45,238 bases of DNA. Origin: a virus. Position numbers and translations under genes: made by a program. Below are positions 6,762 to 42,474 of this stretch, in pieces (positions within the stretch are counted from its first letter, which is position 1; the number at the start of each line of letters is the position of its first letter). The stretch spans positions 1 to 45,238 of the IMG/VR virus record IMGVR_UViG_3300049914_000102. One strand, given 5' to 3'. A model generated the notes under the pieces. That model saw nothing but the letters and a program-made list of their open reading frames with translations, was not told where the DNA came from and did no database searches.

Positions 6762-7327
6762 TGGTTTACCTCCTTAACCCACCAATAAACGGGTTGCTCG
6801 TCAGCCCCCCTATCTCTTATATGTTCCGAATAAGGATCGGTTAAATTAAACTTGATTCCATGAGCCTTCGTGTAAGCATCAACCGCTTCTATCACTCCGC
6901 CACCCCTCAATGGGTAGTAATCATCGCCGGAAACAATACCTCCAACCCTAACTCTCTTTGTCCACTCAATTAAATCCTGCATTACATAGTCAAAAGCGTG
7001 ATTGGAATCAATAAAAACAAAATCTAATGAGCCATACTTAAATCTTTTTACCGCATCCATACTCATTTCCTTTAAAATATGGGTGTTATACTTAGCCAAT
7101 CTTTCAGTGGCGGCTTTAAAACCATTCTTGTTGCGTTCACGACTCCCTGACCAACGATTCCCTTTGTATGGATGCCAGATGTCAATACACCAAAGTTCTA
7201 AGTCGGGAATCGCTTGACACATTGCTTCCGAGAAAAGACCACCGGCCACTCCAATCTCGGCTCCTTTTTTAAAGCCTAATTCGTTAAAATATTTCAATAA
7301 ATCGTATTTGCTGGAAAACTTTACCAT
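6758..7327 (-). CDS. Class I SAM-dependent methyltransferase (Methyltransf_24-like)
   Basis: Protein of 189 aa. The SAM loop reads GAEIGVAGGLFSEAM, the acidic strand-2 end is LWCIDIWHP, motif IV is LDFVFIDSNHAFDYV, and this is followed by GGIVSGDDYYP. These match the class of small methyltransferases often encoded with glycosyltransferases (Methyltransf_24, cephalosporin-hydroxylase-like group). ATG at 7327 overlaps the stop of the upstream glycosyltransferase by seven bases. Methylation of a sugar hydroxyl is a context-based guess. Confidence 0.7.
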   Translation of the reverse strand: MVKFSSKYDLLKYFNELGFKKGAEIGVAGGLFSEAMCQAIPDLELWCIDIWHPYKGNRWSGSRERNKNGFKAATERLAKYNTHILKEMSMDAVKRFKYGSLDFVFIDSNHAFDYVMQDLIEWTKRVRVGGIVSGDDYYPLRGGGVIEAVDAYTKAHGIKFNLTDPYSEHIRDRGADEQPVYWWVKEVNQ

Positions 7328-8136
7328 GTAGGAACAGGTTTAAATCTATCTATTAACCAACTAAGTTCATATCGTTGTTTATGCCAAACTTTACCAGTTC
7401 GCCATTTCTCAACAGCCATTTGTGCTTTAGTTTGTTCTTCTGATGGCAAACTCCAACCCCTTGACTCGGTTTTATGCCAGTGGGCATACCAAACCCCCTT
7501 GTTGACCATTACTTTGCCGCCAGACAGCCAACACTTAAACCCCACTTCTTGAAACTCATTAAAAAACTTCCCATAAATTTCTTCATCTTCCAACTCAAGC
7601 CAGTTAAAATAGTCTTTCCGCATGAACCAGACAGAACCCTGATTTGAACAAGTCTCATCAATCATCTTTTCTCTTAGTTTTGGATCGTGGTTCTTCTCAT
7701 CCCACACCACACCATGCAACTCACTATTTAAATAGTAGTAGTCAACTGGGTACTTATTGTCCTTCCTCTCCTCGATTTGCCACTTTTGGGGTTCTAGGGC
7801 ATAGCGTCTTGGCACACAAACCCAATCCTGCTCACATTGGGCTTTTAGAACCTCGTCGTAGTCCTGGCTGAACATACAGTGTGCATCGGTTTTTAAGATA
7901 AATTCGCCTTTAGCAATAGCAACCCCGGAGTTAATCGCATTTCTCATCCCTCTGGCGTTGCTGTAATGGATGTAAATAACTCTCGGGTCTTCGACAATCT
8001 CGGGTTCCAAAGGCCAATAACCATCGAGGGTAACAATTACCTGAACTTCGCCTTTGGCTTTTTTTAATAGGTCAAGAATAGTATTTTGAAGGTAGGATTC
8101 ATTCCGGGAAGGTATAACAACAGATACCGCACTCAT
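7321..8136 (-). CDS. Family 2 glycosyltransferase (GT-A)
   Basis: Protein of 271 aa and first gene of the cassette. It opens with SVVIPSRNE, the usual GT2 first strand, then VTLDGYWP, RGMRNAINSG and KTDAHCMF. The metal-binding motif is therefore DAH (84-86) rather than DxD, a variant found in the polypeptide GalNAc-transferase-like GT2/GT27 branch. The N-terminal half of 42461-44053 is the nearest relative in the window. The 40-bp gap upstream (8137-8176) holds a weak, degenerate match to the promoter element found before five other genes (TTGCCT at 8173-8168). Confidence 0.75.
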   Translation of the reverse strand: MSAVSVVIPSRNESYLQNTILDLLKKAKGEVQVIVTLDGYWPLEPEIVEDPRVIYIHYSNARGMRNAINSGVAIAKGEFILKTDAHCMFSQDYDEVLKAQCEQDWVCVPRRYALEPQKWQIEERKDNKYPVDYYYLNSELHGVVWDEKNHDPKLREKMIDETCSNQGSVWFMRKDYFNWLELEDEEIYGKFFNEFQEVGFKCWLSGGKVMVNKGVWYAHWHKTESRGWSLPSEEQTKAQMAVEKWRTGKVWHKQRYELSWLIDRFKPVPTW

Positions 8137-8176
8137 AAACTAGATTAAATCATATAGAAGTGTTTAGAGGCAAGAA

Positions 8177-9575: not shown

Positions 9576-10688
9576 TTAAGCGAATGTTGCGTACAACTCT
9601 GCGGCAAAATGTCGGCGAGAGTCTGTAACCTTGGCGCCATACACGAATAAATCTTTGTAGGCTGATCCAAAGTCACCAGTAATGTCTTCTTCGATGTTTG
9701 CCTCAAGCAACTTTTCTGCGAATGTACACCAGTTAGAATGTCCTGCGAGAATCCTGAATCCATCAGTATTATTCCCAGTCAGTCTGTTGGATTTAAACAC
9801 TTTGAAACCTTGTAATTCAGTGATAAATCCGTTCTTCACTAATTCTTGGTATGCTTCTGGAACATGAAGAACAACCCCGGACGAACGAACCAATGTGGAT
9901 TCGAACTCAGACGGTACAATCAAGAACCTATCTGAATCTGGAACAGATGAATATCCGTATCTCTCAGCAATATCTAGTTTTTGCTTTAAGAGAGAAATCT
10001 TCTGTAACAGATTTGATGTCGTGATGCTGATCGGCGAAATCGCCTCTACAACATAGGATGCTCCTGCGATTGCTCCACCGGAATAGTGAGAAGTGGCATC
10101 ATCTTCATCATCCTCAATAAACCCTGTGGTTGTATTGGTGACTGATTTAACCCGATACCATTTGGAATGACCAACAGCTTTAATGCCTCGTCCTTCCCAA
10201 GTTGAATCACACGGAGTTCCACCGGCAACGGTGAAGGCCCCAGTGGTCACAACAATAGTAATCGTGGTCGCATCGTCGGCATCAGTGCCGACTCTGTTTC
10301 CTGCTCCAACCTTAGCGTAAAGGCCAAGAACGTATGTGTCCATGTTCTTGTTCCTCTCATCTGCCTTTTGAGACACGATGGTTGAATGGGGATTCTTAAT
10401 ATAGGAAAGCCATTTGTCAATCGTATATTCTTTCCAGTAGAAAGATTTATATTGATTAATGGTTAAGGTGGCATTATTTTCGTACAGGTCTTCTGCCGTC
10501 AATCCACCTTTGGTGTAGGTCTGCTCTGAAATTCGGTTAAAGTTCAAAATATTGAGCTTTGAACCGACGCCGTTGATTTCCCCTTCATAGTCACGATTAA
10601 CAATGTTGTCAATCAAGCTCTTGTCATAAACCTCGAGCATTAACTTTTGGGAGAAACCTTCAGCTACTTTTGTAGCATATGCGGACAT
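9576..10688 (-). CDS. Major capsid protein (HK97-fold type)
   Basis: Protein of 370 aa. The N-terminal part (SAYATKVAEGFSQKLMLEVYDKSLIDNIVNRDY) and the mid segment with YWKEYTIDKW match coat proteins that bind a tape of N-terminal arm plus E-loop. The C-terminal half has the recurring coat pattern RYGYSSVPDSDRFLIVPSE, then VLHVPEAYQELVKNG and GFKVFKSNRL, ending in a conserved-looking RRHFAAELYATFA. Residues about 131-217 look like an inserted acidic beta domain (IEDDEDDATSHYSGG). No protease gene or prohead-cleavage signal is visible. It has the strongest ribosome site in the region (AGGAGG six bases before ATG) and its own promoter upstream, as expected for the most abundant virion protein. 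Confidence 0.85.
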   Translation of the reverse strand: MSAYATKVAEGFSQKLMLEVYDKSLIDNIVNRDYEGEINGVGSKLNILNFNRISEQTYTKGGLTAEDLYENNATLTINQYKSFYWKEYTIDKWLSYIKNPHSTIVSQKADERNKNMDTYVLGLYAKVGAGNRVGTDADDATTITIVVTTGAFTVAGGTPCDSTWEGRGIKAVGHSKWYRVKSVTNTTTGFIEDDEDDATSHYSGGAIAGASYVVEAISPISITTSNLLQKISLLKQKLDIAERYGYSSVPDSDRFLIVPSEFESTLVRSSGVVLHVPEAYQELVKNGFITELQGFKVFKSNRLTGNNTDGFRILAGHSNWCTFAEKLLEANIEEDITGDFGSAYKDLFVYGAKVTDSRRHFAAELYATFA

Positions 10689-10759
10689 GGTATCCTCCTT
10701 TATAATAATAAAAGATTCTTTACCAGTCCCATAAGGGGTTAGGAAGTTGATCTGTCTTT

Positions 10760-10789
10760 AGGTTAGCACGAGTCTCTATTTCTTGTCAA
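10760..10789 (-). promoter_or_regulatory. Promoter for the major capsid gene
   Basis: On the minus strand TTGACA (10789-10784) is followed after 18 bases by TGC-TAACCT (-10 at 10765-10760), which includes a TG extended -10. It lies immediately after the scaffold stop and predicts a leader of roughly 65 bases ending in the AGGAGG ribosome site. The -35 is perfect; the -10 hexamer is poor, so strength depends on the extended -10. Confidence 0.55.
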
Positions 10790-12150: not shown

Positions 12151-12458
12151 TTCTTTAATCCACTCATCGCCTGTTCTAAGGCTTTCTTTGCTTTCTCAGG
12201 CGTTAATAAAAAGGCTTCAAGCAACATATAATTTCTAAGTCTTGCTTTTAAAAATAAATCTTGTTTCGATTCGTAGCCAACCTTAATAAGTTCCTGCTCA
12301 ACACCGTCTCTCATGGCGGCAATATACTCTTTAACGCTCTCTAGTGTGATCTTTCTCTCGCTTAACGCTTTTAACCACGAGTTGAGTGTCTCACGTTCAG
12401 CTACATTCAGGTCTTCATACTTGAGGTTATACTTTTCAAGCACAGTATCGACGTTCAT
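12147..12458 (-). CDS. Small helical protein following the portal, unknown
   Basis: Protein of 103 aa, predicted entirely helical and charged (TVLEKYNLKYEDLNVAERETL, then KARLRNYMLLEAFLLTPEKAKKAL). Such genes are often found directly after portal genes in phages of this type and may be head-assembly or connector factors, but I do not recognise a family. It starts in an ATGA overlap with the portal stop and ends in an ATGA overlap with the endonuclease VII-like gene. Confidence 0.55.
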   Translation of the reverse strand: MNVDTVLEKYNLKYEDLNVAERETLNSWLKALSERKITLESVKEYIAAMRDGVEQELIKVGYESKQDLFLKARLRNYMLLEAFLLTPEKAKKALEQAMSGLKK

Positions 12459-14224
12459 CTGATTTGTCCTCCTTGCGGCATAGTATTAACTTGTGGTTGT
12501 GGTCTTGGTTGGACTGGCGGTCTTACTTGTGGTTGGCCTTGTGCCGGTGGTTGGCCGGGCATTGGTTGCCCCATCGGGCCACCCATTCCCATACTTATCA
12601 TATTTTCTTGTTTCTTCTTCTCGTAGTCCATGATCTGACTTATCTCATCTGGTGACAGATCAGCAAATTCAACTAACTTCCTCTTGTAAACCTCATCTAA
12701 TTTGGGGTTATCCGGCATTGTTAACTTGGCCGCGTTGAGTTTTTGTAGTGAATCCATGTCTTGAACCTTCTTCTCATCCTGGCTCCAGACTTTGACCTGA
12801 TAACCTGACTTGGTCATCCAGTCTTTAGGACTAATCTCTTTAGTAAAGATGTCGCTTGTGTTTCTCCCTTGTTTGTGAATCTTGACCGCCTCTAATTTAT
12901 CCCCGGCCGCCTCAACTAATTTAATGAATATCTCTCCTCTATCCTTCCATGCTTGGGTGTAGAACTTAGAAAGTCCTTTGACCCTCTCTTTTGCCTCACC
13001 TAAAGCAAGTTGAACCTCGCCTAATGTAATTTGTCTTTGGGCTTGCATCCCTTGTTGTGTAGCAGTTGCTCCAGTGGCTTTCTCAGTCATCTGAATTAAG
13101 AATTCCATCTCATCTAATGACTCACTTAAATCAGGAATATCTACTTTTTGCATGATGTCTTGCGGTTTGCCGGGCACACCATACCATCCCCACGGTACAG
13201 GGCTAAACGTCTGAGGTACAAAGCCTTCAATCGTTGAATCGTAGTAATGCATCCCGAAGTTTCTTAGAGTTCTATTCTCAACCACCTGGCTAAACCATGA
13301 ATTTAAGACTTTATTAGGTGTTCTGACAATGTCCCCCACTCCGTCACTCCAGAAGTCTTGTCTTTCAATGTCTCCCGCCCAGGTAACGTAAGGATAATGA
13401 TTCTTCCAGTAGTTGTCTTTGGTCTTGCCGATAACTTCGTCCAAGGGTTTCTTCATTAAAACTTCCATGTCGTCACACTCAACATATAAATACAGTTGTT
13501 CTTTATCCCCTTCGCCTTCGTAAACAAAATGCAAAGTCAATCCAACATAGGTTTCACCCAGGATTGGGTCATGGATGTCACTTACTCCCAAATCCGAGAG
13601 CTTCTTGTTCTTCTCATCGTTATCAGAGGCTTTAATCAGCCCTTGGTCGCTAGCGTGCCAAAGTTTGAGTTTTGCTACGGCCTCTTGGTCATAGGCCGGG
13701 TTATTCTCTAAGGTCTTTAAGGGGACAAATATGTTTGTGTGAATCAGGAAGCGTGACAAATTAAGATTAGAAGGATCACAATAGCGGTCAACCAGTATGT
13801 CTTCGGGGTCTTGGACAGTCATCTTGACCTTGCCGTCAACTATCTGCCATTGATCGAAAGACCGGCCATACAGGAACTGTTGTCTCTTGTCAATAATGTC
13901 CTGAATCTCCATCTTGTTATGCTCGGCGGTGTATTTCCAGTATTCGTTTTTAAATATCTCGGCTTCTTTGTCATTGTCTAGGTTCTCGAAGTGAAGTACC
14001 GGCATATCATCAATATCTTTTAGAAGAGTTTGGACTGCCAGTTTCATCATGGGAAGGTTGACGCTCTGGCGTTGTGTTAAGCGGTTGATAACTACCTTGT
14101 CTCTGTATAGTTGATAGTTCTCATCCCAGTCGGCGTGTCGTCTTTCCCGGTAATTGTAGCCGCTTGTCTTGTTAAGACGAAGCATTGTTAATACGGGGTC
14201 TTCCCGTTTTACTTGTTGTGGCAT
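12455..14224 (-). CDS. Portal protein
   Basis: Protein of 589 aa directly downstream of the large terminase, of portal size. The N-terminal quarter has the typical arrangement RRHADWDENYQLYRD, then MMKLAVQTLLKDIDDMPVL. The middle has DRYCDPSNLNLSRFLIH and the DFWSDGVGDIVRTPNKVLNSW stretch, where P22/podovirus-like portals have G-D-x-x-x-x-Q-x-x-x-N in the stem region. A long helical segment follows (LGEAKERVKGLSKFYTQAW). The last 45 residues are Gly/Pro/Gln-rich and disordered. The promoter element at 14260-14222 runs straight into its ATG with no ribosome site. Confidence 0.82.
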   Translation of the reverse strand: MPQQVKREDPVLTMLRLNKTSGYNYRERRHADWDENYQLYRDKVVINRLTQRQSVNLPMMKLAVQTLLKDIDDMPVLHFENLDNDKEAEIFKNEYWKYTAEHNKMEIQDIIDKRQQFLYGRSFDQWQIVDGKVKMTVQDPEDILVDRYCDPSNLNLSRFLIHTNIFVPLKTLENNPAYDQEAVAKLKLWHASDQGLIKASDNDEKNKKLSDLGVSDIHDPILGETYVGLTLHFVYEGEGDKEQLYLYVECDDMEVLMKKPLDEVIGKTKDNYWKNHYPYVTWAGDIERQDFWSDGVGDIVRTPNKVLNSWFSQVVENRTLRNFGMHYYDSTIEGFVPQTFSPVPWGWYGVPGKPQDIMQKVDIPDLSESLDEMEFLIQMTEKATGATATQQGMQAQRQITLGEVQLALGEAKERVKGLSKFYTQAWKDRGEIFIKLVEAAGDKLEAVKIHKQGRNTSDIFTKEISPKDWMTKSGYQVKVWSQDEKKVQDMDSLQKLNAAKLTMPDNPKLDEVYKRKLVEFADLSPDEISQIMDYEKKKQENMISMGMGGPMGQPMPGQPPAQGQPQVRPPVQPRPQPQVNTMPQGGQIR

Positions 14225-14260
14225 ATTTTGAGTCTATACAAATAAACTATTTAAAGTCAA
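14222..14260 (-). promoter_or_regulatory. Leaderless-type promoter element, copy before the portal
   Basis: Minus strand: TTGACT, 16 bases (TTAAATAGTTTATTTG), TATAGA, 8 bases, ATG. The same 39-base layout with a conserved AAATAGTT spacer core occurs before four other genes (27801-27839, 34485-34523, 37697-37735, 42436-42474). Spacing predicts transcription starting within a base or two of the ATG, so the mRNA would be leaderless. Confidence 0.6.
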
Positions 14261-14263
14261 CTA

Positions 14264-16288
14264 TTATCCCGGAAGGCCGGTGAAGAATGGTTTAATCCCA
14301 CCTACTCCCGGCATCTTTTTAATCGGGCCTATCGGTTTAAAACTGTTAATTGCATACCTAACTGAGTCCATACAATTAGAAACAAGAATTCCGCCATTGA
14401 TGGAATAACAACAAGTATCTTCTACTTCGAGGTTATAAACTGCTCTTTTGTAAGATTTTCTGGTAATCCTTTTAATCTGCGTCGTCTGGCTTTCATTTTG
14501 CAATTCTGGTGGCAATACTTTGAATGTATCCCAATATAAGTATTGTATTCTTTGCCACATTGTAAGCAATTTCTTTTTATCTTCTTTCTCTTTTGCCATG
14601 AGATTTTGCCAAGTTCTGAATGAAAGGTTAATCCTTCTTCCGAACCATGCCATTTTGAAGCCAGCACTCTGATTTTGTTTACCCATTTTCTTTGTCTCTG
14701 CCTCTTTTGGGGTGTCATATGATTGCTTAGATGAAAACGTCTTGGCACCAATTCCAGATTCCCTATTAAATTGTTGTGTGGATTCTCGTCTTTGTGGTGA
14801 ATTTGGAAATCTGTTGGAATTAACCCATTGTAAAATTCCCAAACAGCTCGATGTAAGCGTTTCCTCCCACGACTGAAGTATCTTTCGCCATGATAAAGTC
14901 TGTATTCCTTTCCATTGAATATCTGTATTTCCATAAGTAACTGATTGTATCATATCCATTGGGTAAAGTAAAGAGGCTGGACACCAATCTCCACTTTTTA
15001 ACTTGAAAGGATGTTCTCCCGAACAAAAAATCTTTCTACCGTCTATAAATTCCACTTCATATATTTGTTCTATCCCGATTTGCCTTACATCGTAGAATTT
15101 CCTAATTTTTCCATTTTCCGAATATAAATAACCTTTCTTACCAACTAAATTCTTTATCTTTATCTGACCTTTTGTTGTATCTACTAAAGTATTGCCATCT
15201 ACGCAGTGATTCATAAACTCTTGTGGCTCATTGATCGTCTTGCCTTCCTTATCGGTTATCCATAAGTAGTTGCGGTATTCTTTTATGAGAGAGACGCTCC
15301 GGGATGTGACACTAATCCTTTGTTGTTGGACATATTGAATCCCTTGTTTTACCGAATCAGGCCCCTTGACCGAGGGCATGACATTTATTCCCTTGCCCTC
15401 TAGTCTAAACAACTTAATCTCATCAATGCTCTTTGGCTCGGCACTGTCGGCAATCACTAAAGCGTGAGGTTGGTTAATCAGAACGTCGAAAATATCTCTA
15501 TTAGTCATGCCGTATTGGTAAGCAATCTCGTCTAAGATGTAGCCGCCGTTATAATAATAGATGGCAATAATGGCCGTCGGATCGTTTGTATAGCCAAAAT
15601 CAAGACCATAGCGCCTCAGTTGAGCTTCGTGGGGTATGTTCTCGAGTATTTGCCAGCCTTGGTATATTCTTGCCTCAACCACCCCTAATTGACCTAAACC
15701 ATAGACTTGCCACCACGCCACATTCCCTTTCCTCGCCTCAATCGCTTTGACGATATTTATGTCTAAGGCTTCATTGTCCTTGTAAGTCAATGTAAGGAAG
15801 TCCACATTGTCTAAATTCATTACATCGGTGTAAAACCAAAACTCCGCTTCCGGGTTCCAGTCTAACCAAATTATTTCTTTAGTCCTTACCTCTAATTGTG
15901 TATATGTTTCATAAGTCAAATGATTGGCTTCGTTGATAAAAAGAATATCTCGTCTTGCTCCCTTGACTTTTTCCCATGACTCAACACCAAAGAACTCAAT
16001 GATTGACCCCGTCTCGAAAGTGTAAATGGAATTAGTCTTTTCCCACCGATTATCTTGGAAGTAGTTATGTTCCTTCATTATGTTTAGAAAGTCTCTCATT
16101 GCACCCTTACGAAGGTGGGGCATTGATTCGGAGACGATTGAAATCACTTTGTTATCATTCTTTTGGGCATAGGTAATTAAGATAAGAAGAATAGAAACCG
16201 TTTTCGAGGCAGAAGTGCCACCAGATACTCCACGAATACGTTTACTCAGTTGTTGGAGTTTCTGAGTTGCTTGCGTTAGCTGATACAT
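14264..16288 (-). CDS. terL: Terminase large subunit with an intein
   Basis: Precursor of 674 aa. The ATPase part has a P-loop variant GGTSASKT (23-30) and Walker B/catalytic Glu DILFINEAN (114-122, E120). The nuclease part has GLDFGYTNDP (D230), VIADSAEP (D281) and the last acidic motif DSVRYA (D641). An intein of 277 residues (C362 to N638) interrupts just before that motif, so only the spliced 397-residue protein is a full nuclease. The host protein is of the Terminase_3/PBSX-like type. The start is ATG 16288 with AGAAGG seven bases upstream, overlapping the small terminase by 47 bases. Confidence 0.88.
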   Translation of the reverse strand: MYQLTQATQKLQQLSKRIRGVSGGTSASKTVSILLILITYAQKNDNKVISIVSESMPHLRKGAMRDFLNIMKEHNYFQDNRWEKTNSIYTFETGSIIEFFGVESWEKVKGARRDILFINEANHLTYETYTQLEVRTKEIIWLDWNPEAEFWFYTDVMNLDNVDFLTLTYKDNEALDINIVKAIEARKGNVAWWQVYGLGQLGVVEARIYQGWQILENIPHEAQLRRYGLDFGYTNDPTAIIAIYYYNGGYILDEIAYQYGMTNRDIFDVLINQPHALVIADSAEPKSIDEIKLFRLEGKGINVMPSVKGPDSVKQGIQYVQQQRISVTSRSVSLIKEYRNYLWITDKEGKTINEPQEFMNHCVDGNTLVDTTKGQIKIKNLVGKKGYLYSENGKIRKFYDVRQIGIEQIYEVEFIDGRKIFCSGEHPFKLKSGDWCPASLLYPMDMIQSVTYGNTDIQWKGIQTLSWRKILQSWEETLTSSCLGILQWVNSNRFPNSPQRRESTQQFNRESGIGAKTFSSKQSYDTPKEAETKKMGKQNQSAGFKMAWFGRRINLSFRTWQNLMAKEKEDKKKLLTMWQRIQYLYWDTFKVLPPELQNESQTTQIKRITRKSYKRAVYNLEVEDTCCYSINGGILVSNCMDSVRYAINSFKPIGPIKKMPGVGGIKPFFTGLPG
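14375..15205 (-). mobile_element. Intein in the terminase, with the endonuclease slot read out of frame
   Basis: Block A is CVDGNTLVDTTKGQIKIKNL, starting at the splice Cys (C362). Block B is FCSGEHPFKLKSGDW, with the conserved His. Blocks F/G read VYNLEVEDTCCYSINGGILV then SN before the C-extein Cys. The penultimate residue is Ser instead of the usual His. About 90 N-terminal and 35 C-terminal residues would form a minimal splicing domain. The roughly 150 residues between them are not an endonuclease in this frame but lie opposite an HNH gene in another frame (14422-14934). Insertion at a catalytic motif of terminase is typical of inteins. Confidence 0.85.
14422..14934 (-). CDS. HNH homing endonuclease nested in the terminase intein
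   Basis: Protein of 170 aa on the same strand as terL but in a different frame. It has an HNH_3-type core: RLHRAVWEFYNGLIP, then FQIHHKDENPHNN and GNLELVPR. Then come a basic stretch, a zinc knuckle (CLQCGKEY ... KYCHQNC) and a Lys/Arg-rich tail. It ends at 14422, within codons for intein block F. Homing endonucleases normally sit in-frame between the two intein halves; here it occupies that exact place out of frame. No ribosome site precedes ATG 14934, so expression could need internal initiation or frameshifting. Confidence 0.75.
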   Translation of the reverse strand: MEIQIFNGKEYRLYHGERYFSRGRKRLHRAVWEFYNGLIPTDFQIHHKDENPHNNLIGNLELVPRRFHLSNHMTPQKRQRQRKWVNKIRVLASKWHGSEEGLTFHSELGKISWQKRKKIKRNCLQCGKEYNTYIGIHSKYCHQNCKMKARRRRLKGLPENLTKEQFITSK

Positions 16289-16655
16289 TTTTACCTTCTA
16301 ATATTGGAATTGGCCTTCCTCCAGAAGTTAAATCAACAGCGGATTTCTCTATCATATCGTGATTAACTTTAAGAAGGAGAGCAATAATAGTAGCATTGAT
16401 TTCTTTACCTCCAAAGATTCCCGTTTTGATTAAAGCTTCCTTTTGTCTCATCTTTAATTCTTCTAAAGTGTCGGAAAACTCTGGATGAATTTTTGCCCAT
16501 TCGTAAAGTGTATCTCTAGAAATGCCTAATCTAAGCGCTATTCCTTCTATGGTTGGAATTGCCATATTTTCAGGGACAGCTTCTTCAAGGTACTTATTGA
16601 TTTCATTTATCACTTCAGGAGTATATAGTGTTGGTCTACCGCCGGGGTGTGTCAT
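16242..16655 (-). CDS. terS: Terminase small subunit
   Basis: Protein of 137 aa. N-terminal PGGRPTLYTPEVINEINKYL, then the helix-turn-helix IEGIALRLGISRDTLYEWAKIHPEFSDTL, a common signature of small terminases that recognise the packaging site. A helical oligomerisation segment (MRQKEALIKTGIFGG) and a short tail follow. Located directly upstream of terL and overlapping it. Its ribosome site (GAAG) is weak, and only 12 bases separate it from the stop of the Tad2-like gene, so it is probably cotranscribed with the early region. Confidence 0.85.
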   Translation of the reverse strand: MTHPGGRPTLYTPEVINEINKYLEEAVPENMAIPTIEGIALRLGISRDTLYEWAKIHPEFSDTLEELKMRQKEALIKTGIFGGKEINATIIALLLKVNHDMIEKSAVDLTSGGRPIPILEGKNVSANASNSETPTTE

Positions 16656-16667
16656 ATCTTCATTTAA

Positions 16668-16931
16668 TCAATTCGGATTAGTTATAGGCAAATTACAAAC
16701 AATATAATCCTCGCCCTTCAAATCGCCCTCGGAGATAATCCATTGGTAAAACTTACCATCTTCCTTGTGAAGCATTAAAAAGCCATCTTTCAAGACACCA
16801 TAGATATTGCCACTATTCCACTCTCTTTTAGTGATTGTGTTACCATCGATTATTAGTTTCATGGCCGCCGGGAAACCTAATCCGGCTTTCTCTACTCTTT
16901 GTGGTCTGGGGCTTTGTTTTAATTCTTTCAT
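16668..16931 (-). CDS. Probable Tad2-like anti-Thoeris protein (DUF2829-type)
   Basis: Protein of 87 aa. Residues 20-80 follow the DUF2829/Tad2 layout: FPAAMKLIIDG (F-x-x-A-x-x-x-I-x-x-G), then ITKREW (R36, W38), a short beta hairpin, and W64-x5-GDLKGEDYIV in place of the family's W-x-P-S-x-x-D-l-x-A-x-D-W-x-V ending. Tad2 proteins are phage-encoded sponges that bind the cyclic ADP-ribose-type signal of Thoeris defence. The assignment rests on pattern recognition; residues 1-19 are an extra tail. A strong GGAGG lies five bases before ATG 16931. An unrelated small beta protein remains possible. Confidence 0.6.
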   Translation of the reverse strand: MKELKQSPRPQRVEKAGLGFPAAMKLIIDGNTITKREWNSGNIYGVLKDGFLMLHKEDGKFYQWIISEGDLKGEDYIVCNLPITNPN

Positions 16932-16939
16932 GATCCTCC

Positions 16940-17191
16940 TTAAATTGATCTTAACATTACAAAATAACTTTTATTGCTTATAATACAAGCTCTTCTGATA
17001 TAGCCTTTAAGTAATAAACCTTTAATTGCATTAATTACTGCCGGGGCTTTGTGTTCTTGTTCTTTTGTTTTGGTCATTATTTCTTTTAATGGTATTGGTG
17101 TTTTCTCTTTGTGAACCCAATCAATAATCACATACATTATGTCTTTCTGTAATTTAGTCAGGTCGCTAATCGTTACATAAATTGTCTGCAT
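16940..17191 (-). CDS. Small winged-helix-like protein, unknown
   Basis: Protein of 83 aa. The order of elements (LTKLQKDIMYVIIDWVHKE, PIPLKEIMTKTKEQE, KAPAVINAIKGLLLKGYIRRA, then a beta strand NKSYFVMLRSI) reads like a winged helix: helix, helix, recognition helix and wing. This would suit a small DNA-binding regulator, but there is no family match I can name. It overlaps the end of the NinG-like gene by 26 bases and lacks a ribosome site, implying translational coupling. Confidence 0.5.
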   Translation of the reverse strand: MQTIYVTISDLTKLQKDIMYVIIDWVHKEKTPIPLKEIMTKTKEQEHKAPAVINAIKGLLLKGYIRRACIISNKSYFVMLRSI

Positions 17192-21693: not shown

Positions 21694-22329
21694 CTATTTC
21701 CCACCCCTATGACACTCTTTACATAATGTTCTTCCGTTATTTATGTTCCAAAACTCTTCGCATTCTATCGCTTGCTCTAATGTTTTAATTTTATTTTCAT
21801 CAAATATTTTTGAAAAACTTTTAGGCCAATGGTCTGCTTCTATTCTCCCCCCTCTTTTCCCACATTTTTGGCAAGTAAAATTATCTTTTGTAAAAACATC
21901 TGATCTCCACAAACGATATTTGAAGCATTGTCTTATTTGATTCCTTAACTTAGTTATTCCACCCTTCCACTTCCAACTCTTTTCTTTTTTGTGTGCTAAA
22001 CTCATCTTCTGCCTAGTCTCTAGAGATCGCTTCTTTCCTTTTGTTGATTCGCTTATTTTCTTTTTAGTTTCCTCAGTAATAATTTGTTTTGCCCGAGCTT
22101 TCCTTATTTTTTCTTTGGATTCTTCTGAAACCCTTTTTCCTTTATTCCCTAATCCTATTTTTACCCTAGTCTCCTTACTATTTTTCCCTCTATGATGTAG
22201 GCTCATTTTTTCTCGGGCCTCTTGTGTGTGTTTTTTCCCTTTCCGATTGATATTCCCTGTATTCGCTAAACTAATTTTTCTTTTGTGTTCATCTGTGAAT
22301 TTTCTTCCTAACCAATACTTTCCCCTCAT
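21694..22329 (-). CDS. NUMOD3-repeat HNH homing-type endonuclease
   Basis: Protein of 211 aa. Residues 1-115 are five to six NUMOD3-like DNA-binding units (GRKFTDEHKRKIS, GKKHTQEAREKMS, GKNSKETRVKIG, GKRVSEESKEKIR, GKKRSLETRQKMS), each G-K-x-x-[ST]-x-E-x-[KR]. A GGI linker and an HNH part follow: CQKCGKRGGRIEADHWPKSF, NNGRTLCKECH. Its ATG overlaps the stop of the HTH gene (TAATG). A free-standing homing nuclease inserted between early genes. It is a different subtype from 19098-19709. Confidence 0.82.
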   Translation of the reverse strand: MRGKYWLGRKFTDEHKRKISLANTGNINRKGKKHTQEAREKMSLHHRGKNSKETRVKIGLGNKGKRVSEESKEKIRKARAKQIITEETKKKISESTKGKKRSLETRQKMSLAHKKEKSWKWKGGITKLRNQIRQCFKYRLWRSDVFTKDNFTCQKCGKRGGRIEADHWPKSFSKIFDENKIKTLEQAIECEEFWNINNGRTLCKECHRGGK

Positions 22330-22493
22330 TACTTCCTCCGCAAAAAGGCCGGAATATCGCTTTCCGTTATGTATTTTGTATAGTGAAGTCCCATGGATTT
22401 GACCGGAAGTTTGCCGCGCCGGATCCAGTTATAAATGGTCATCCGGGTAACACCAAGCATTTCCGCGACTTGAGTAGAAGTATAATATTTCAT
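22329..22493 (-). CDS. MerR/excisionase-like helix-turn-helix protein, leaderless
   Basis: 54-aa protein: YYTSTQVAEMLGVTRMTIYN, then WIRRGKLPVKSMG and YITESDIPAFLRRK. This is the HTH_17 fold: TxxVAxxLGVSRxTIxxWIRxGKLP, wing, then I-x-x-x-D-I-x-x-F-L. Such proteins serve as excisionases or small repressors. With no integrase in the genome, a transcription regulator is more likely. Its ATG follows a consensus promoter by eight bases and has no ribosome site. Confidence 0.75.
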   Translation of the reverse strand: MKYYTSTQVAEMLGVTRMTIYNWIRRGKLPVKSMGLHYTKYITESDIPAFLRRK

Positions 22494-22501
22494 TTAGAGA
22501 G

Positions 22502-22530
22502 AGTATAAAGCATAACTAACTATTTGTCAA
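22502..22530 (-). promoter_or_regulatory. Consensus sigma-70-type promoter for the HTH gene
   Basis: TTGACA (22530-22525), 17 bases with an AAATAGTT-like core, TATACT (22507-22502), then eight bases to the ATG. A leaderless transcript of the regulator and the HNH gene behind it is predicted. The promoter overlaps the 3' end of the upstream gene. Confidence 0.78.
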
Positions 22531-26947: not shown

Positions 26948-27360
26948 ACCTTTGGGGACAACCACCCCATAACTCCTCTATAATTATGCTTTTGGTAGTG
27001 GCAAGGGGAGTTGGTGGGATAATTCTGGTCAAAGGTGATTAAATTATTAACACTTGCGGTCATACAAAGGGCTACATGGCCTGCCCAGCCTGTAACAAAG
27101 GGATAGTAGTTCCAAAAGATAATATCGCCTTTTAGGGGCACTCCAGACGGCGTATTCACTATTTTGGTAAAATGGGTATTTGAGGGGTTGAAGTTCTGAA
27201 AGACCTGTTTGGCGTACTGAACAGCAGGAAGGTCATAAGGATTAAGCCCTAAACATTCTTTTAGATATTGTCTTAATAAATCCATACACTGATAGCCCCA
27301 ATGACCATCGAAGTCGAGATATTTACCATTCCATTTGTCAAAAAAAACTTGTGTGTTCAT
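26944..27360 (-). CDS. CHAP-domain endolysin
   Basis: Protein of 138 aa. A single CHAP domain: GHWGYQCMDLLRQYL contains the catalytic Cys (C25), and PLKGDIIFWNYYP followed by GWAGHVALCM holds the His (H95). CHAP domains are cysteine amidases or endopeptidases that cut peptidoglycan. No signal peptide, so it needs the holin. It lacks any cell-wall-binding domain. Embedded between the membrane/coiled-coil genes of the lysis group. Confidence 0.82.
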   Translation of the reverse strand: MNTQVFFDKWNGKYLDFDGHWGYQCMDLLRQYLKECLGLNPYDLPAVQYAKQVFQNFNPSNTHFTKIVNTPSGVPLKGDIIFWNYYPFVTGWAGHVALCMTASVNNLITFDQNYPTNSPCHYQKHNYRGVMGWLSPKV

Positions 27361-27803
27361 TTTATAAACTTAATAAGTATTCCTATAATTGTCGCTACTA
27401 ACCCCGCCACCAAAGCCACCGTAGCCATCCCCTGTTGCTTCCCTACCCCTTCGCTTTGTCTGGCAATCGTTGCAACATTCAAAGCGTCAATCTTGTCATT
27501 CATACTCTTAATCATTACTTCCAACTCCGCCCTCGGCATTAAGTTCCTTTGCTGATCCGCAAGTGTACTGCGAAATTCGTTTACTGCGTCAAATCTCTTT
27601 TCACTGGCTTGCTCGGCTTTGTTGACTGCTCTGTCGGAAGCGACTAAGGCGGCTTGGGTAGCCTGCAAAATACTTTCAAACCTCTGGTTGTAGTTCCTAT
27701 CGTTAGCCTCAATTAACTCCTTGATATTGGAAAGTTGTGCCGAGAACAAATCTTTTAAATCTACTCCATCATTCCAAAGAAATTTTTTATCTCCGTTGGT
27801 CAT
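27357..27803 (-). CDS. Coiled-coil protein with C-terminal membrane anchor
   Basis: Protein of 148 aa. N-terminal soluble helix (LKDLFSAQLSNIKELIEAND), then ATQAALVASDRAVNKAEQAS and EKRFDAVNEFRSTLADQ, a pattern met in many phage lysis-region proteins of unknown function. The C-terminal membrane segment is MATVALVAGLVATIIGILI (about 126-144). Likely a holin or membrane-linked lysis accessory protein. The leaderless-type promoter element at 27839-27801 ends in its ATG, so it probably starts the lysis transcript. Confidence 0.65.
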   Translation of the reverse strand: MTNGDKKFLWNDGVDLKDLFSAQLSNIKELIEANDRNYNQRFESILQATQAALVASDRAVNKAEQASEKRFDAVNEFRSTLADQQRNLMPRAELEVMIKSMNDKIDALNVATIARQSEGVGKQQGMATVALVAGLVATIIGILIKFIK

Positions 27804-27839
27804 ATTTTTATCTTGCTCTTTATAACTATTTTAAGGCAA
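27801..27839 (-). promoter_or_regulatory. Leaderless-type promoter element, copy before the lysis genes
   Basis: TTGCCT then 21 bases, GATAAA, AATATG. Shares TTGCCT-AAAATA and the AAGATAAAAATATG end with the copy at 37697-37735. The -10 position is weak here (GCAAGA), so it may be a less active copy or need an activator. Confidence 0.5.
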
Positions 27840-33785: not shown

Positions 33786-34487
33786 TTAAAACCCCCCTAT
33801 ATTATTTTTAACTTCTTGGTCAACATTACCAGCAAAATAGTCTGGCACTTCAAACATTTGTTTATCAAGCCTTTGATATTTAGCCTGCCTTTTTAGTATT
33901 TTGGAATACATATTAGATAATATTGCTATCGCTTCGGCTTCTTCCGCTTGGCCTTCTTGTTTGCGATTGGCTTGTGGTAGCAATACACCCAAAGACTTTT
34001 TAACTACTGCCTCGTTACCCATGATGCCTTCATGGGTAAAGATAGTCTCATCATCGTCATCTTCTAAAGGGGTCGCTACCTGTAACCCAAAGATAATGAT
34101 ATTAAGACCATCGACTGTCGGGGTAGGGTAAAGGAAGATTTGTTGTCCGTAGTCTGAGGAGATAGTCAAATCCTTCTCTCCGGTTTCGATATATTTATAG
34201 TTCAAAAAGTCGTCAAAGTTTTTAATTTCGTAAAGATCATCATCTACGATTACTCTTGAAACACTATCGACAATAAATCCTTCTGGGTAGTCGTAATAAT
34301 ACTGGTCTTTAACTGTTGTGGTAATTTTCGCTATCTCTAGTTGTGGCCATTGATAGATGGAAGTTGCCCAATTATAGGCATCAATCGCCGTAGCCTGAAT
34401 CTTAGTTGGAGTAAAGAAAGTTGAACCGACCGTTGTTCCCAACCGGTTAGTTATTTCTGTTACTATGTCTCCGAGTGTTTCTAACAT
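33786..34487 (-). CDS. Head-tail adaptor/connector protein
   Basis: Protein of 233 aa. N-terminal helix pair LGDIVTEITNRLGTT and TKIQATAIDAYNWATSIYQW, then a beta-rich centre (TTTVKDQYYYDYPEGFIVDSV, GQQIFLYPTPTVDGLNIIIF), and a C-terminal helix with AEEAEAIAILSNMYSKILKR. This is the layout of gp4/adaptor-like proteins that sit under the portal in podoviruses (helix bundle with a beta insert). The position at the start of the tail/ejection block agrees. Preceded by the promoter element at 34523-34485. Confidence 0.65.
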   Translation of the reverse strand: MLETLGDIVTEITNRLGTTVGSTFFTPTKIQATAIDAYNWATSIYQWPQLEIAKITTTVKDQYYYDYPEGFIVDSVSRVIVDDDLYEIKNFDDFLNYKYIETGEKDLTISSDYGQQIFLYPTPTVDGLNIIIFGLQVATPLEDDDDETIFTHEGIMGNEAVVKKSLGVLLPQANRKQEGQAEEAEAIAILSNMYSKILKRQAKYQRLDKQMFEVPDYFAGNVDQEVKNNIGGF

Positions 34488-34523
34488 ATTTTTACTTTAT
34501 ACTTTTATTATATTTTTAGGCAA
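34485..34523 (-). promoter_or_regulatory. Leaderless-type promoter element, copy before the adaptor
   Basis: TTGCCT, 16 bases (AAAAATATAATAAAAG), TATAAA, 8 bases, ATG. Identical spacing to the other four copies; sits directly after the stop of the upstream serine-repeat gene. Confidence 0.6.
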
Positions 34524-37360: not shown

Positions 37361-37699
37361 TTAGTCTGGTAGCTTCTCCATCGTATATACTAATGTCCAT
37401 TCTTTTGTTGCGGGATCACGCTGATAGATATTCCCAGCATCTCCGAATCCATAAGTATAACCATCAGACGCCGGGACAAAAAACATAATCAAATCGGTTA
37501 TCACTCCTTCACTTTCTTCAACCAATCCTTGCTGGCAAGAGATAGAATCATTTTGTTTTCTAATATCCAATCCGGAAGCGAATTTGAAGGAACCCAAAGT
37601 ACCCCTATCAGAATAGTCGCTAATTCCCCCAATTACACTTCTAATCTGAAATCTTTGCATCCTTGTATTTGGTATCTTTTCGGTTGTTGGTTGTGGCAT
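37361..37699 (-). CDS. Tail protein, N-terminal part of a split pair
   Basis: Protein of 112 aa: RFQIRSVIGGISDYSDRGTL, FKFASGLDIRKQNDSISCQQ, then FFVPASDGYTYGFGDAGNIY and a last strand EWTLVYTMEKLPD. Reads as the opening blades of a propeller-type tail protein, stopping in TAA right before the next gene's ATG (GACTAAAAATATG). The leaderless-type promoter at 37735-37697 precedes it. Confidence 0.55.
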   Translation of the reverse strand: MPQPTTEKIPNTRMQRFQIRSVIGGISDYSDRGTLGSFKFASGLDIRKQNDSISCQQGLVEESEGVITDLIMFFVPASDGYTYGFGDAGNIYQRDPATKEWTLVYTMEKLPD

Positions 37700-37735
37700 A
37701 TTTTTATCTTAGCCTGTCATAATATTTTTAGGCAA
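37697..37735 (-). promoter_or_regulatory. Leaderless-type promoter element, copy before the propeller genes
   Basis: TTGCCT, 21 bases beginning AAAAATATTATGACAGG, GATAAA, AATATG. Same 39-base spacing as the others; the -10 position is weak (CTAAGA), as in the lysis copy. Confidence 0.5.
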
Positions 37736-40700: not shown

Positions 40701-41953
40701 ATAGTAATAGAAGCTCCTCCACCACCCCCAGCAATATAATGAACGCCACCTACATCTACACCAGCTTCGGCAACAATTAATAAGTCAGAATAGTCACTTG
40801 TTCCGTCTCCCCCAATCCCTCCGTTATTTGCTGATGGTCCAACATGGCCTTCTTCTCCCGCTCCTCCACCACCTCCACCACCTTGATGGTCTGGTTGTGT
40901 ATCTCCACCATCATATCCTTGTCCTGGTACTCCTGCTCCTCCTGACTGTGGGTAATCTCCCCCACCACCCCCAGAACCACCTGGCCTCCCGTCACCGTCA
41001 CCTCCACCACCTCCACCACCTGTCGCTGATACTGTCCCGAAGGATGAAGCGACGCCATCATCACCGGGGTCAGATGCTCCACCAGAACCACCAGTTCCGC
41101 CACCACCGACAACTACATCAACACCAGTATCTGCAGTAACAGCAACTGTAGCATTGTGAACAAGCCCACCTGCTCCTCCCCCACCGCCAGCATAACATCC
41201 TCCACCACCTCCACCAGCAACTACTAAAACTTCTACATTACCGCTAAAATCAGGAGTAAAAGTACCATCAGAAGTAAACTTATGAACTTTATAGTCCCCG
41301 TCTGTATAAATGTTGTTTCCACCTGTTGCTGAACGTTCCTCTGCACCAGAAGTCGAAGGACTAAGACTGATGCTTATACTAGGAGAAACAGATGGAGATA
41401 ACGATTCGCTTATGGACGGTGAGACCGAAGGTGACAAACTAATGCTCACTGAAGGACTAACACTAACTGAAGCAATGTCATCTCTGTAGACATAGAAACA
41501 CCTATCGGCAACAGTATCTGAAGTCCAGCCATCATCCCATTCACAGTGATTTCCAGGATGAGACGGCGAAGTTGCATCATAATACCATGTGATATACCCA
41601 CCAGACTGAACTAAAACCAAAACATAATAGTTTCCGTTCGTAAGAACTATTTTGTTTGCTCCAGTGAAAGTGAAAGTTATTAGTTCAGGATCAACTCCGA
41701 TTATCGAACTATCTACTATCCCAGATGTAGCCAATACGTCCCCAGTAGGAATGCTATCCGTTCCGTAGGCAGTTGCGTGTGTTTCGGCATATATTCGTAC
41801 TACTAATGATTCTGATACTTCACCGTCATTCGCTAAATAGAGTTTTATACTATTAAGAGTCCCTCCATCTCCGGTAAAAGAACACCCTATCAGGGCACTA
41901 GCACCACTACCTGTTGCATTACTTTCACTATAACTATCACAAATCACGCTCAT
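37736..41953 (-). CDS. Giant serine-rich-repeat tail adhesin
   Basis: Protein of 1405 aa, the largest in the genome. In order: a beta-sandwich domain (1 to about 160, GGTLNSIKLYLANDGEVSES); a short SPSVS linker; a Gly-rich domain (about 215-480, VLVVAGGGGGGCYAGG); an SPSVS linker; a DUF2341-like part (YRVKITVDKDLVGG) joined to a LamG/concanavalin-like domain (ARIMINDYGSEVAGATD); a 470-residue alternating-serine tract (to about 1355); and a C-terminal NKY-repeat anchor (TFTNKYSAKPTVWANKYKTYK). The carbohydrate-binding-type domains suggest host-surface binding; the Ser tract is a stalk and a likely glycan carrier. Ribosome site GGAGGGC. Confidence 0.78.
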   Translation of the reverse strand: MSVICDSYSESNATGSGASALIGCSFTGDGGTLNSIKLYLANDGEVSESLVVRIYAETHATAYGTDSIPTGDVLATSGIVDSSIIGVDPELITFTFTGANKIVLTNGNYYVLVLVQSGGYITWYYDATSPSHPGNHCEWDDGWTSDTVADRCFYVYRDDIASVSVSPSVSISLSPSVSPSISESLSPSVSPSISISLSPSTSGAEERSATGGNNIYTDGDYKVHKFTSDGTFTPDFSGNVEVLVVAGGGGGGCYAGGGGGAGGLVHNATVAVTADTGVDVVVGGGGTGGSGGASDPGDDGVASSFGTVSATGGGGGGGDGDGRPGGSGGGGGDYPQSGGAGVPGQGYDGGDTQPDHQGGGGGGGAGEEGHVGPSANNGGIGGDGTSDYSDLLIVAEAGVDVGGVHYIAGGGGGASITIEAAGGKGGGGVGGVHPSNGGAGVDNTGGGGGGIWITSTAGSGGSGIVIVKYDTTVGGGSVSLSPSVSISLSPSVSESLSVSLSPSVSESLSPSVSASPSVSVSLSPSASEAISGWYGGTCDWAYRVKITVDKDLVGGADQSAFPVYVDLSDLPAGFHTHCNQTDARDIRVTTSDGETEVPREVVSYTAASDTGELWFKGDLDKDADTDFYIYYGNAGASDYAVDAEFGRNAVWSNGFVLVFHHAEASYSGVEDEVVDSSGNANHGTSTSATIAAGMLGNGVDYSTPGYILVPDNDNLDGMAKLTLSAWYQSTKTSGQNILINKWDWRVPTPVAYHWRVENNKARIMINDYGSEVAGATDVSTGEWVHLQMTYDSTATSAIVYFNGDNDGYNAAWDKGNVNTPTLGVSIAKFPQEGAANSGLMDEMRIVNDARSAGWVTCEYNNQNAPDTFYGVGAEEPCSAGGSVSLSPSVSPSVSISLSPSVSISLSPSVSESLSPSVSESLSPSVSPSVSISLSPSVSPSVSVSLSPSVSESLSPSVSPSVSISLSPSVSPSVSISLSPSISPSVSISLSPSVSISLSPSVSPSISISLSPSVSPSVSLSLSPSVSVSLSPSVSPSVSISLSPSVSPSVSISLSPSVSPSVSISLSPSVSKSLSPSVSPSVSVSLSPSVSPSVSISLSPSVSISLSPSISPSVSKSLSPSVSPSVSISLSPSVSPSVSISLSPSVSVSLSPSVSISLSLSVSPSVSISLSPSVSPSVSISLSPSVSPSVSISLSPSVSPSVSVSLSPSVSISLSPSVSPSISVSLSPSVSPSVSVSLSPSISPSVSPSVSVSISPSVSVSLSPSVSLSLSPSVSPSVSVSLSPSVSVSLSPSVSPSVSPSISVSLSPSLSLSISPSASVSLSPSISPSVSPSVSESLSPSISPSVSESLSPSASISPSPSAPIWTDKYEFKGTVYVNKYSNVGNTFTNKYSAKPTVWANKYKTYK
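37871..39310 (-). repeat. SPSVS-coding tandem repeat (copy set 3, about 1.4 kb)
   Basis: Longest of the three tracts: about 470 codons, with Ser at almost every second position and short sub-blocks SPSVSPSVSISL or SPSVSVSL repeated dozens of times. Synonymous codons vary from unit to unit. Two smaller pieces occur in the same gene near 40375-40535 and 41345-41475. Confidence 0.88.
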
Positions 41954-42438
41954 CTTGCCCTCCTTTCAAAGAAGTCTATCCAGTATTCCCTACGATGACC
42001 TGTTTTAGTATGACATTTTCGACAAAGCGTAATTAAATTATTAGGATTACAATTCTTTTTATCGTAATCAATATGATGAACATTGTCCCCATATTGACTA
42101 CAAAGTTGACAAATATAATTATCACGCTCTCTAATCGCTCTTTTAAGTGTTTCCGTCCAATCTATCGTGTATAGCTCAAAAGATATTCCGCCTCTCCAAT
42201 TAGGATGTTTTTCCCCAGTCTTTGCTCTCATCATGGCTCTTTGTTTCTCCGAAGGTTTTTGTCCTAAATGAGACACACTTAACCTTTTCTTGGTTTCTTG
42301 GCTTCTTTTCTTCCCCAAATTAGCCAATCTTATCTTTTCCCTCCACTCTTTAGAGAAAGGTGGTCTTTTTTTTCCCTTCATAGAAGCAGATATTATTGCC
42401 CGATGTTTTTCTGTTCTTGGGTAAATTCCTTTTGCCAT
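41950..42438 (-). CDS. NUMOD3/HNH homing-type endonuclease
   Basis: Protein of 162 aa: YPRTEKHRAIISASMKGKKR, then NUMOD3-like units (PPFSKEWREKIRLANLGKKR, SQETKKRLSVSHLGQKP), the linker WRGGISFELYTIDWTETLKR and the HNH part CQLCSQYGDNVHHIDYDKKN, NPNNLITLCRKCH. Shorter relative of 19098-19709 without its N-terminal zinc finger. It overlaps the giant tail gene by ATGA and has the leaderless-type promoter element directly upstream, so it is inserted at the head of the tail transcription unit. Confidence 0.82.
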   Translation of the reverse strand: MAKGIYPRTEKHRAIISASMKGKKRPPFSKEWREKIRLANLGKKRSQETKKRLSVSHLGQKPSEKQRAMMRAKTGEKHPNWRGGISFELYTIDWTETLKRAIRERDNYICQLCSQYGDNVHHIDYDKKNCNPNNLITLCRKCHTKTGHRREYWIDFFERRAR

Positions 42439-42474
42439 ATTTAAAGTTTATACAAAGAAACTATTTTAAGGTAA
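42436..42474 (-). promoter_or_regulatory. Leaderless-type promoter element, copy before the HNH/tail unit
   Basis: TTACCT, 16 bases (TAAAATAGTTTCTTTG), TATAAA, 8 bases, ATG. Closest match to the portal copy (shared AAATAGTTT-TTTGTATA). The element overlaps the stop of the upstream glycosyltransferase gene. Confidence 0.6.

Follow-up and report, generated by a model that had tools for sequence, protein, structure and literature searches.

The recurring 39-bp element described here is a real, conserved phage promoter class. The best explanation overall, to which we assign a probability of about 0.8, is a sigma-70-type phage promoter, TTGCCTT-n-AAnTA-...-TAnnnT, predicted to set the transcription start (+1) at the first base of the initiator ATG and to yield leaderless mRNAs for the portal and several other, mostly virion, genes, with an upstream half that probably serves a phage factor or an altered contact and with a capsid gene that is leadered. 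The element was found in a window of 45,238 nucleotides, the whole of IMG/VR virus record IMGVR_UViG_3300049914_000102. The host is probably a CPR bacterium. In this very large and mostly uncultured group of bacteria, little is known, to our knowledge, of how either the cells or their phages initiate transcription and translation. The motif offers a testable late-promoter definition for CPR phages and helps both in assigning contigs to this phage group and in choosing start codons; it also points to leaderless initiation being widespread among CPR ribosomes.

The element and its genes in the window

Five 39-bp copies, all on the minus strand and each closed by the ATG of an ORF, lie where the original prediction had placed them (Table 1), far above chance expectation. 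With a matrix trained on the window copies themselves, the five score 54-56, the next site (16653-16691, before the terminase small subunit gene, TerS) scores 32.9, and all else falls below 27. A second matrix, built on portal upstream regions from other contigs only, ranks the window copies first. It gives six window matches of at least 13 bits (42474, 14260, 34523, 8173, 37735 and 27839) and no others, with an ATG after all six; ATG-coupled matches in 100 dinucleotide shuffles of the window average 0.1 and reach at most 1. The copy at 8134-8173, earlier suspected of being a degenerate sixth, proves to be a true member at 19.0 bits, with a spacer two bases longer. Scanning with the upstream half alone recovers seven sites with an ATG 36-37 nt on, namely the five, 8173 and 16691, plus four further ATG-linked matches that are weaker or at other distances. 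The site at 16691, missed by the earlier reader, combines a strong TTGCCT..AACTA half (13.3 bits) with a poor -10, and the -10 of the 27801 copy is weak as well.

Table 1. Promoter elements and associated features of the window
Feature	Positions	Strand	Details
GT2 glycosyltransferase gene	7321-8136	minus	GT2 domain
Sixth copy, before GT2 gene	8134..8173	minus	TTGCCT-N20-TAATCT-N5-ATG; upstream half 12.8 bits
Major head protein gene	9576..10688	minus	PHROG 267, E 4e-23; homologue in 12/12 relatives
Capsid-gene leader, about 65 nt	10689..10753	minus	Conserved CTTCCTAACC hairpin and SD AAAGGAGG
Leadered major capsid promoter	10760..10789	minus	TTGACA-N18-TAACCT; AAATA spacer core in common with leaderless copies
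Portal gene (earlier reader's name)	12455..14224	minus	No PHROG match; homologue in 12/12 relatives
Portal promoter, predicted leaderless	14222..14260	minus	TTGACT-N18-TAGACT-N6-ATG; -10 at 14231-14236; 21.6 bits
Terminase large subunit	14264..16288	minus	PHROG 2, E 1.7e-26
Terminase small subunit (TerS)	16242..16655	minus	PHROG 309, E 5e-11
Seventh, weaker copy, before TerS	16653..16691	minus	36 nt to ATG
Winged-helix protein, 83 aa, conserved, candidate late activator	16940..17191	minus	Just upstream of TerS
Promoter of ORF 27357-27803 (earlier reader's lysis unit), predicted leaderless	27801..27839	minus	TTGCCT-N18-CAAGAT-N6-ATG; 13.6 bits
Promoter of ORF 33786-34487 (earlier reader's adaptor), predicted leaderless	34485..34523	minus	TTGCCT-N18-TAAAGT-N6-ATG; 19.9 bits
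Promoter of ORF 37361-37699 (earlier reader's propeller), predicted leaderless	37697..37735	minus	TTGCCT-N18-TAAGAT-N6-ATG; 16.2 bits
Promoter of HNH gene 41950-42438, predicted leaderless	42436..42474	minus	TTACCT-N18-TAAACT-N6-ATG; 22.1 bits
ORF start codons ending the five copies	14224, 27803, 34487, 37699, 42438	minus	

The -10 had been placed behind a 16-base spacer and eight bases before the ATG, but at that position two of the five copies have no -10-like word. Read two bases further downstream, the -10 words are those of Table 1, the spacer is 18 and six bases remain to the ATG, so that the consensus becomes TTGCCT-N18-TAnnnT-N6-ATG and +1 falls on the A of the ATG. The 18-bp spacer is present in five of the seven leaderless window sites, and the box at -36 is TTG in six of the seven copies and TTA in one. 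These are the marks of a sigma-70-type promoter, with -35 and -10 hexamers 16-18 bp apart and T-12, A-11 and T-7 conserved. As judged from sequence alone, the placement is also that of a leaderless gene, with +1 set on the start codon by the -10 and SD absent. As originally observed, a ribosome site is missing: the 20 nt that lead up to each of the five ATGs, and to the ATG at 8136, contain no SD-like string. Four copies do begin 0-3 nt past the upstream stop codon, and the fifth, at 42436-42474, overlaps the final 14 nt of the upstream ORF.

On comparison with relatives, the proposal of a late leaderless regulon is upheld in two respects, namely a promoter common to mostly virion genes and the coincidence of the expected transcription start with the start codon; the late timing we infer. 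Two window copies precede non-virion genes and count against a virion-gene set, one before the GT2 gene at 8136 and one before the HNH gene at 42438, which itself precedes the giant tail gene. A dyad was considered as a possible reading of the element's upstream half, TTnnnTTnAAnnnAA. The exact pattern TTGCCT-N6-AAATA has no match in the phage's own genome, because the core lies nearer to TTGCCT, and an Rfam search of the window gave no match.

Conservation in uncultured relatives

Relatives were retrieved as 80 IMG/VR loci with the portal protein; in INPHARED, neither a DNA-level search (6.6 kb) nor a portal protein search found a relative. The geometry of the element, expressed as TTG-N8-YA-N10..13-YA...T-N4..9-ATG, fits 59 of 78 portal starts in the relatives (19 do not match), compared with 161 of all 19,035 ATGs that these loci contain, portal starts among them. 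Column conservation was taken from 33 distinct portal sites with TTG exactly 36 nt before the ATG. Outside TTG and ATG, the strongest columns are C4 (79%), T12 (91%), A13 (94%), T23 (88%), T25 (94%), A26 (97%) and T30 (97%), and a T or C occupies position 36 at 94% of the sites. T25, A26 and T30, which also fit the corrected -10 register, behave like -12, -11 and -7, so that position 37, the A of the ATG, would be +1. The phage element at these sites has a weak -10 and a strong upstream half. Lack of conservation of the spacer core in related phages had been named as an outcome that would speak against the element; the core is conserved. Across all IMG/VR, an exact pattern matched 17 stretches, and its reversed control matched 2.

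The element is also found before genes other than the portal gene. In twelve relative records, two of which (G001 and G002) have sequence in common, the matrix gives 44 matches of at least 15 bits, 37 with an ATG 2-13 nt after, compared with 1 match and no ATG-coupled one in reversed sequence; as the matrix was trained on portal sites partly from the same phages, the relatives' portal matches are partly circular, and those at other genes and in the window are not. The proteins encoded downstream are mainly portal, tail-like proteins, a small protein beside the portal and two sets of window-ORF homologues, those of ORF 33786-34487 (7 records) and those of ORFs 37361-37699/36646-37356 (7 records). 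One record, G003, has no ATG-coupled match of at least 13 bits. Among 41 ORFs longer than 60 aa in the relatives, with the G004 portal counted twice, the distance from TTG to ATG is 36 in 26, 37 in 10, 42 in 3, and 35 and 38 in one each, so 36 or 37 in 36 of the 41.

The capsid gene separates the core from the start codon. Capsid promoters were located without the matrix in 27 of 35 capsid upstream regions, and the ATG lies 86-137 nt from the TTG, about 60 nt beyond the -10 region. Nevertheless, 19 of the 27 have TA at 12-13, compared with 0-5 for the remaining positions between 7 and 24, and 24 have it at 25-26, the -10. Since the core is kept though the capsid ATG is distant, it belongs to the promoter DNA and not to the start codon. 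Capsid sites carry TTGACA in 30 of 33 cases, and portal sites most often TTGCCT (18/51). The capsid leader of the window and its relatives retains CTTCCTAACC..GGGACGGTAAAAG..CTTTTACC, with a covarying three-base stem (CCC/GGG, CTC/GAG, TTC/GAA, GTC/GAC), and two leader hairpins may share GG, as in a switch or attenuator. For 25 capsid leaders aligned with MAFFT, RNAalifold gave no predicted base pairs. When the stem was tested as CC[TA]AA[CG] against A-C/T-GG, taking the best of several regex fits per sequence, which leans to pairing, 22 of 25 leaders were fully paired, compared with a mean of 12.7 and a maximum of 18 in 2000 arm shuffles.

Start codons in the probable CPR host

The host is indicated by the relatives. 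One of the relative contigs belongs to the bin of a Candidatus Woesebacteria MAG, and the portal profile matches two of 379 genomes of that CPR phylum, G013 and G383. A 149-kb contig of G383 carries the portal gene, near which an integrase is encoded; polysaccharide genes lie on the left side and chromosome-like genes on the right. A 15-bp repeat occurs at C1:31412 and 65347, the latter being the 5' end of a tRNA-Glu, and these repeats would bound a 33.9-kb prophage in a CPR (Patescibacteria) chromosome. To the right of the prophage, a serine recombinase gene (L138:5411-6925) lies beside this tRNA; since this gene is also there, the site may be a hotspot. The window phage thus probably infects ultra-small CPR bacteria. 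The G383 prophage has its own recurring core, GTATAAAAATTGTTG, with the same geometry but different from the window core. It occurs in four exact copies before ATGs, with 36 nt (three copies) or 39 nt (one) from -35 start to ATG as judged by eye, and in a one-mismatch copy before the prophage capsid gene.

The same -10-to-ATG spacing is found on the host's own genes. Among the 487 G383 starts that follow a gap, 142 have TAnnnT exactly 6 nt before the ATG, compared with 16 and 33 at the neighboring distances and a background of about 15. The logo is TGnTATAAT, with T or C at -1 in 96% of 182 such genes. The proportion is 12/118 in G013 (from a fraction) and 23/185 pooled over 20 further CPR genomes, several of which singly have none, compared with about 7 expected; in E. 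coli, none of 39 genes has the 6-nt spacing. A sharp TGnTATAAT-N6-ATG on CPR genes (G383 and G013; L119-L183) is a sign of widespread leaderless transcription, and leaderless starts appear native to the CPR host lineage rather than a phage invention. In host DNA, the phage motif reaches at least 13 bits at 12 sites. Nine of these are in L119-L133 and L140-L143 and have no ATG after them; the other three lie in the flanks of G383:C1 outside the repeats, and one of them precedes an ATG, at a distance of 9 nt instead of 5-6.

Mechanism, alternatives and known systems

The leaderless reading is strong on the predicted positions of the starts, and the phage-specific parts are TTGCCTT and the AAnTA spacer core. 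That a bound factor uses them is a reasonable inference, because host leaderless-type promoters carry no TTGCCTT/AAnTA information. The best candidate activator, by co-occurrence, is the winged-helix protein (Table 1). Of the 26 loci whose sequence extends more than 3.6 kb beyond the portal on the upstream side, 24 have a homologue, located 1.8-3.3 kb upstream of the portal; the two without one are L003 and L033. Among the 379 CPR genomes, strong matches are confined to the two portal carriers, with four weak ones (E about 4e-4). The product matches Pfam LexA_DNA_bind below cut-off (E 0.002), and PHROG 1077, "transcriptional regulator," weakly matches 7 of 31 family members. The AlphaFold2 model is H-H-H-E-E (mean pLDDT 83.9), and its PDB matches are generic winged-helix proteins, none with E <0.01. 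As the gene adjoins TerS, a packaging role is also allowed.

We also considered whether a phage sigma factor might read the motif. Of 13 records, two had a Sigma70_r4 match above the cut-off, one of which looks like an HNH-like ORF on inspection by eye, and one had an r4_2 match; judged in the same way, the matches in G009 and G012 look like HNH-like ORFs, and a plausible 77-aa sigma-region-4-like protein occurs only in G005. The weak window match, 22329-22493, is by eye a 54-aa MerR/excisionase-like HTH. This small gene lies behind TTGACA-N17-TATACT-N8-ATG (22502-22530), an ordinary consensus promoter near the ATG. A search for single-subunit RNA polymerase matched 0 of 13 records, and its control likewise matched nowhere.

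The same leaderless promoters could be served by host sigma alone, with the spacer core as an unusual DNA contact or curvature and no phage factor. We regard this as plausible, if short of even odds: the complete -35 and -10 hexamers at 18-bp spacing, the perfect TTGACA of the capsid copies and the absence of a conserved phage sigma factor from the searches of 13 records all suit it. However, host leaderless-type promoters have no core signal and rely instead on the extended TGnTATAAT -10, the host-DNA matches are hardly coupled to ATGs, and the phage -10 is weak where its upstream half is strong. A promoter with a leader of 1-5 nt, rather than none, is unlikely. The distance to the ATG does shift by a base or two among relatives, but the most frequent spacing makes the A of the ATG the +1 position, with the same pyrimidine preference at -1 in phage and host.

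Least probable is an RNA signal between cistrons, acting as a translation enhancer or a processing site within one long polycistronic mRNA. It would fit the shared direction of all genes and the four copies that fill the stop-to-ATG gap, yet the element also lies well ahead of the capsid ATG, with a separate leader in between, folding of the five 39-nt elements is nothing unusual (z-scores -1.5 to +0.6), and the -35, the -10 and the -1 pyrimidine agree with transcription starts.

We favor the phage promoter that starts on the ATG. Transcription would begin on its A and give leaderless mRNAs for the portal and several, mostly virion, genes. Host RNA polymerase probably reads the -10. The upstream TTGCCTT/AAnTA half, from -36 to -24, is probably there for a phage factor or an altered contact that turns on the whole set at once; for such a factor, the winged-helix protein would be the best candidate. 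In the capsid gene, the same core with consensus TTGACA and a conserved leader would give the high output needed for a high-copy protein. A broader proposal, which we put forward as doubtful, is that a widespread CPR-phage group has a late regulon of leaderless virion mRNAs, a winged-helix activator reading TTGCCTT-n-AAnTA and a leadered, structured, consensus-promoted capsid mRNA, and that this is workable since 5'-terminal AUGs are routine start sites for CPR ribosomes.

The element would define a new class of late promoter, as a variant on the leaderless and activated promoters already described. T4 middle promoters have a MotA box, TTTGCTTTA, about 12 bp from the -10; they share a phage-specific box near -30 and a host-type -10 with the element but give leadered mRNAs, unlike the predicted leaderless products and 18-bp spacer here. 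The T4-type late promoter, TATAAATA alone without a -35, is ruled out by the TTG/TTA box at -36 in all seven window copies and its conservation in relatives. Lambda cI is expressed from PRM as a leaderless phage mRNA that starts at the AUG, yet it is a single repressor gene in lysogeny rather than a set of virion genes. In bacterial leaderless promoters, the -10 lies close to the start codon. Leaderless bacterial genes, which have no 5' untranslated region, are the subject of a Mycobacterium study (PMC3898074) and a survey (PMC3160421). In bacteria they are a host-wide feature, whereas here a phage regulon has its own upstream half and spacer core. CPR host promoters share the -10 exactly 6 nt from the ATG and the pyrimidine at -1 but differ in their extended TGnTATAAT, weak TTG and spacer of 17, compared with TTGCCTT, AAnTA, a weaker -10 and a spacer of 18 in the phage. 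In the literature searched, whose scope excluded most subscription papers and all bioRxiv preprints, leaderless starts in Patescibacteria, CPR or Parcubacteria/Microgenomates are unreported, and the relevant passages of PMC12641178, PMC6851277, PMC11665869, PMC10746230 and PMC13059738 do not treat leaderless starts or promoters in CPR bacteria or phages.

Two further features of the window were observed. A Tad2-like (Thoeris anti-defence 2-like) domain protein at 16668-16931 lies just below the Pfam cut-off (E 1.7e-4), with homologues in 11 of 12 relatives. Glycosyltransferase-like and sugar genes occupy both contig ends (49-8136 and 42461-45223), which suggests that the record is a cut circle, with the sugar cassette running across the join.
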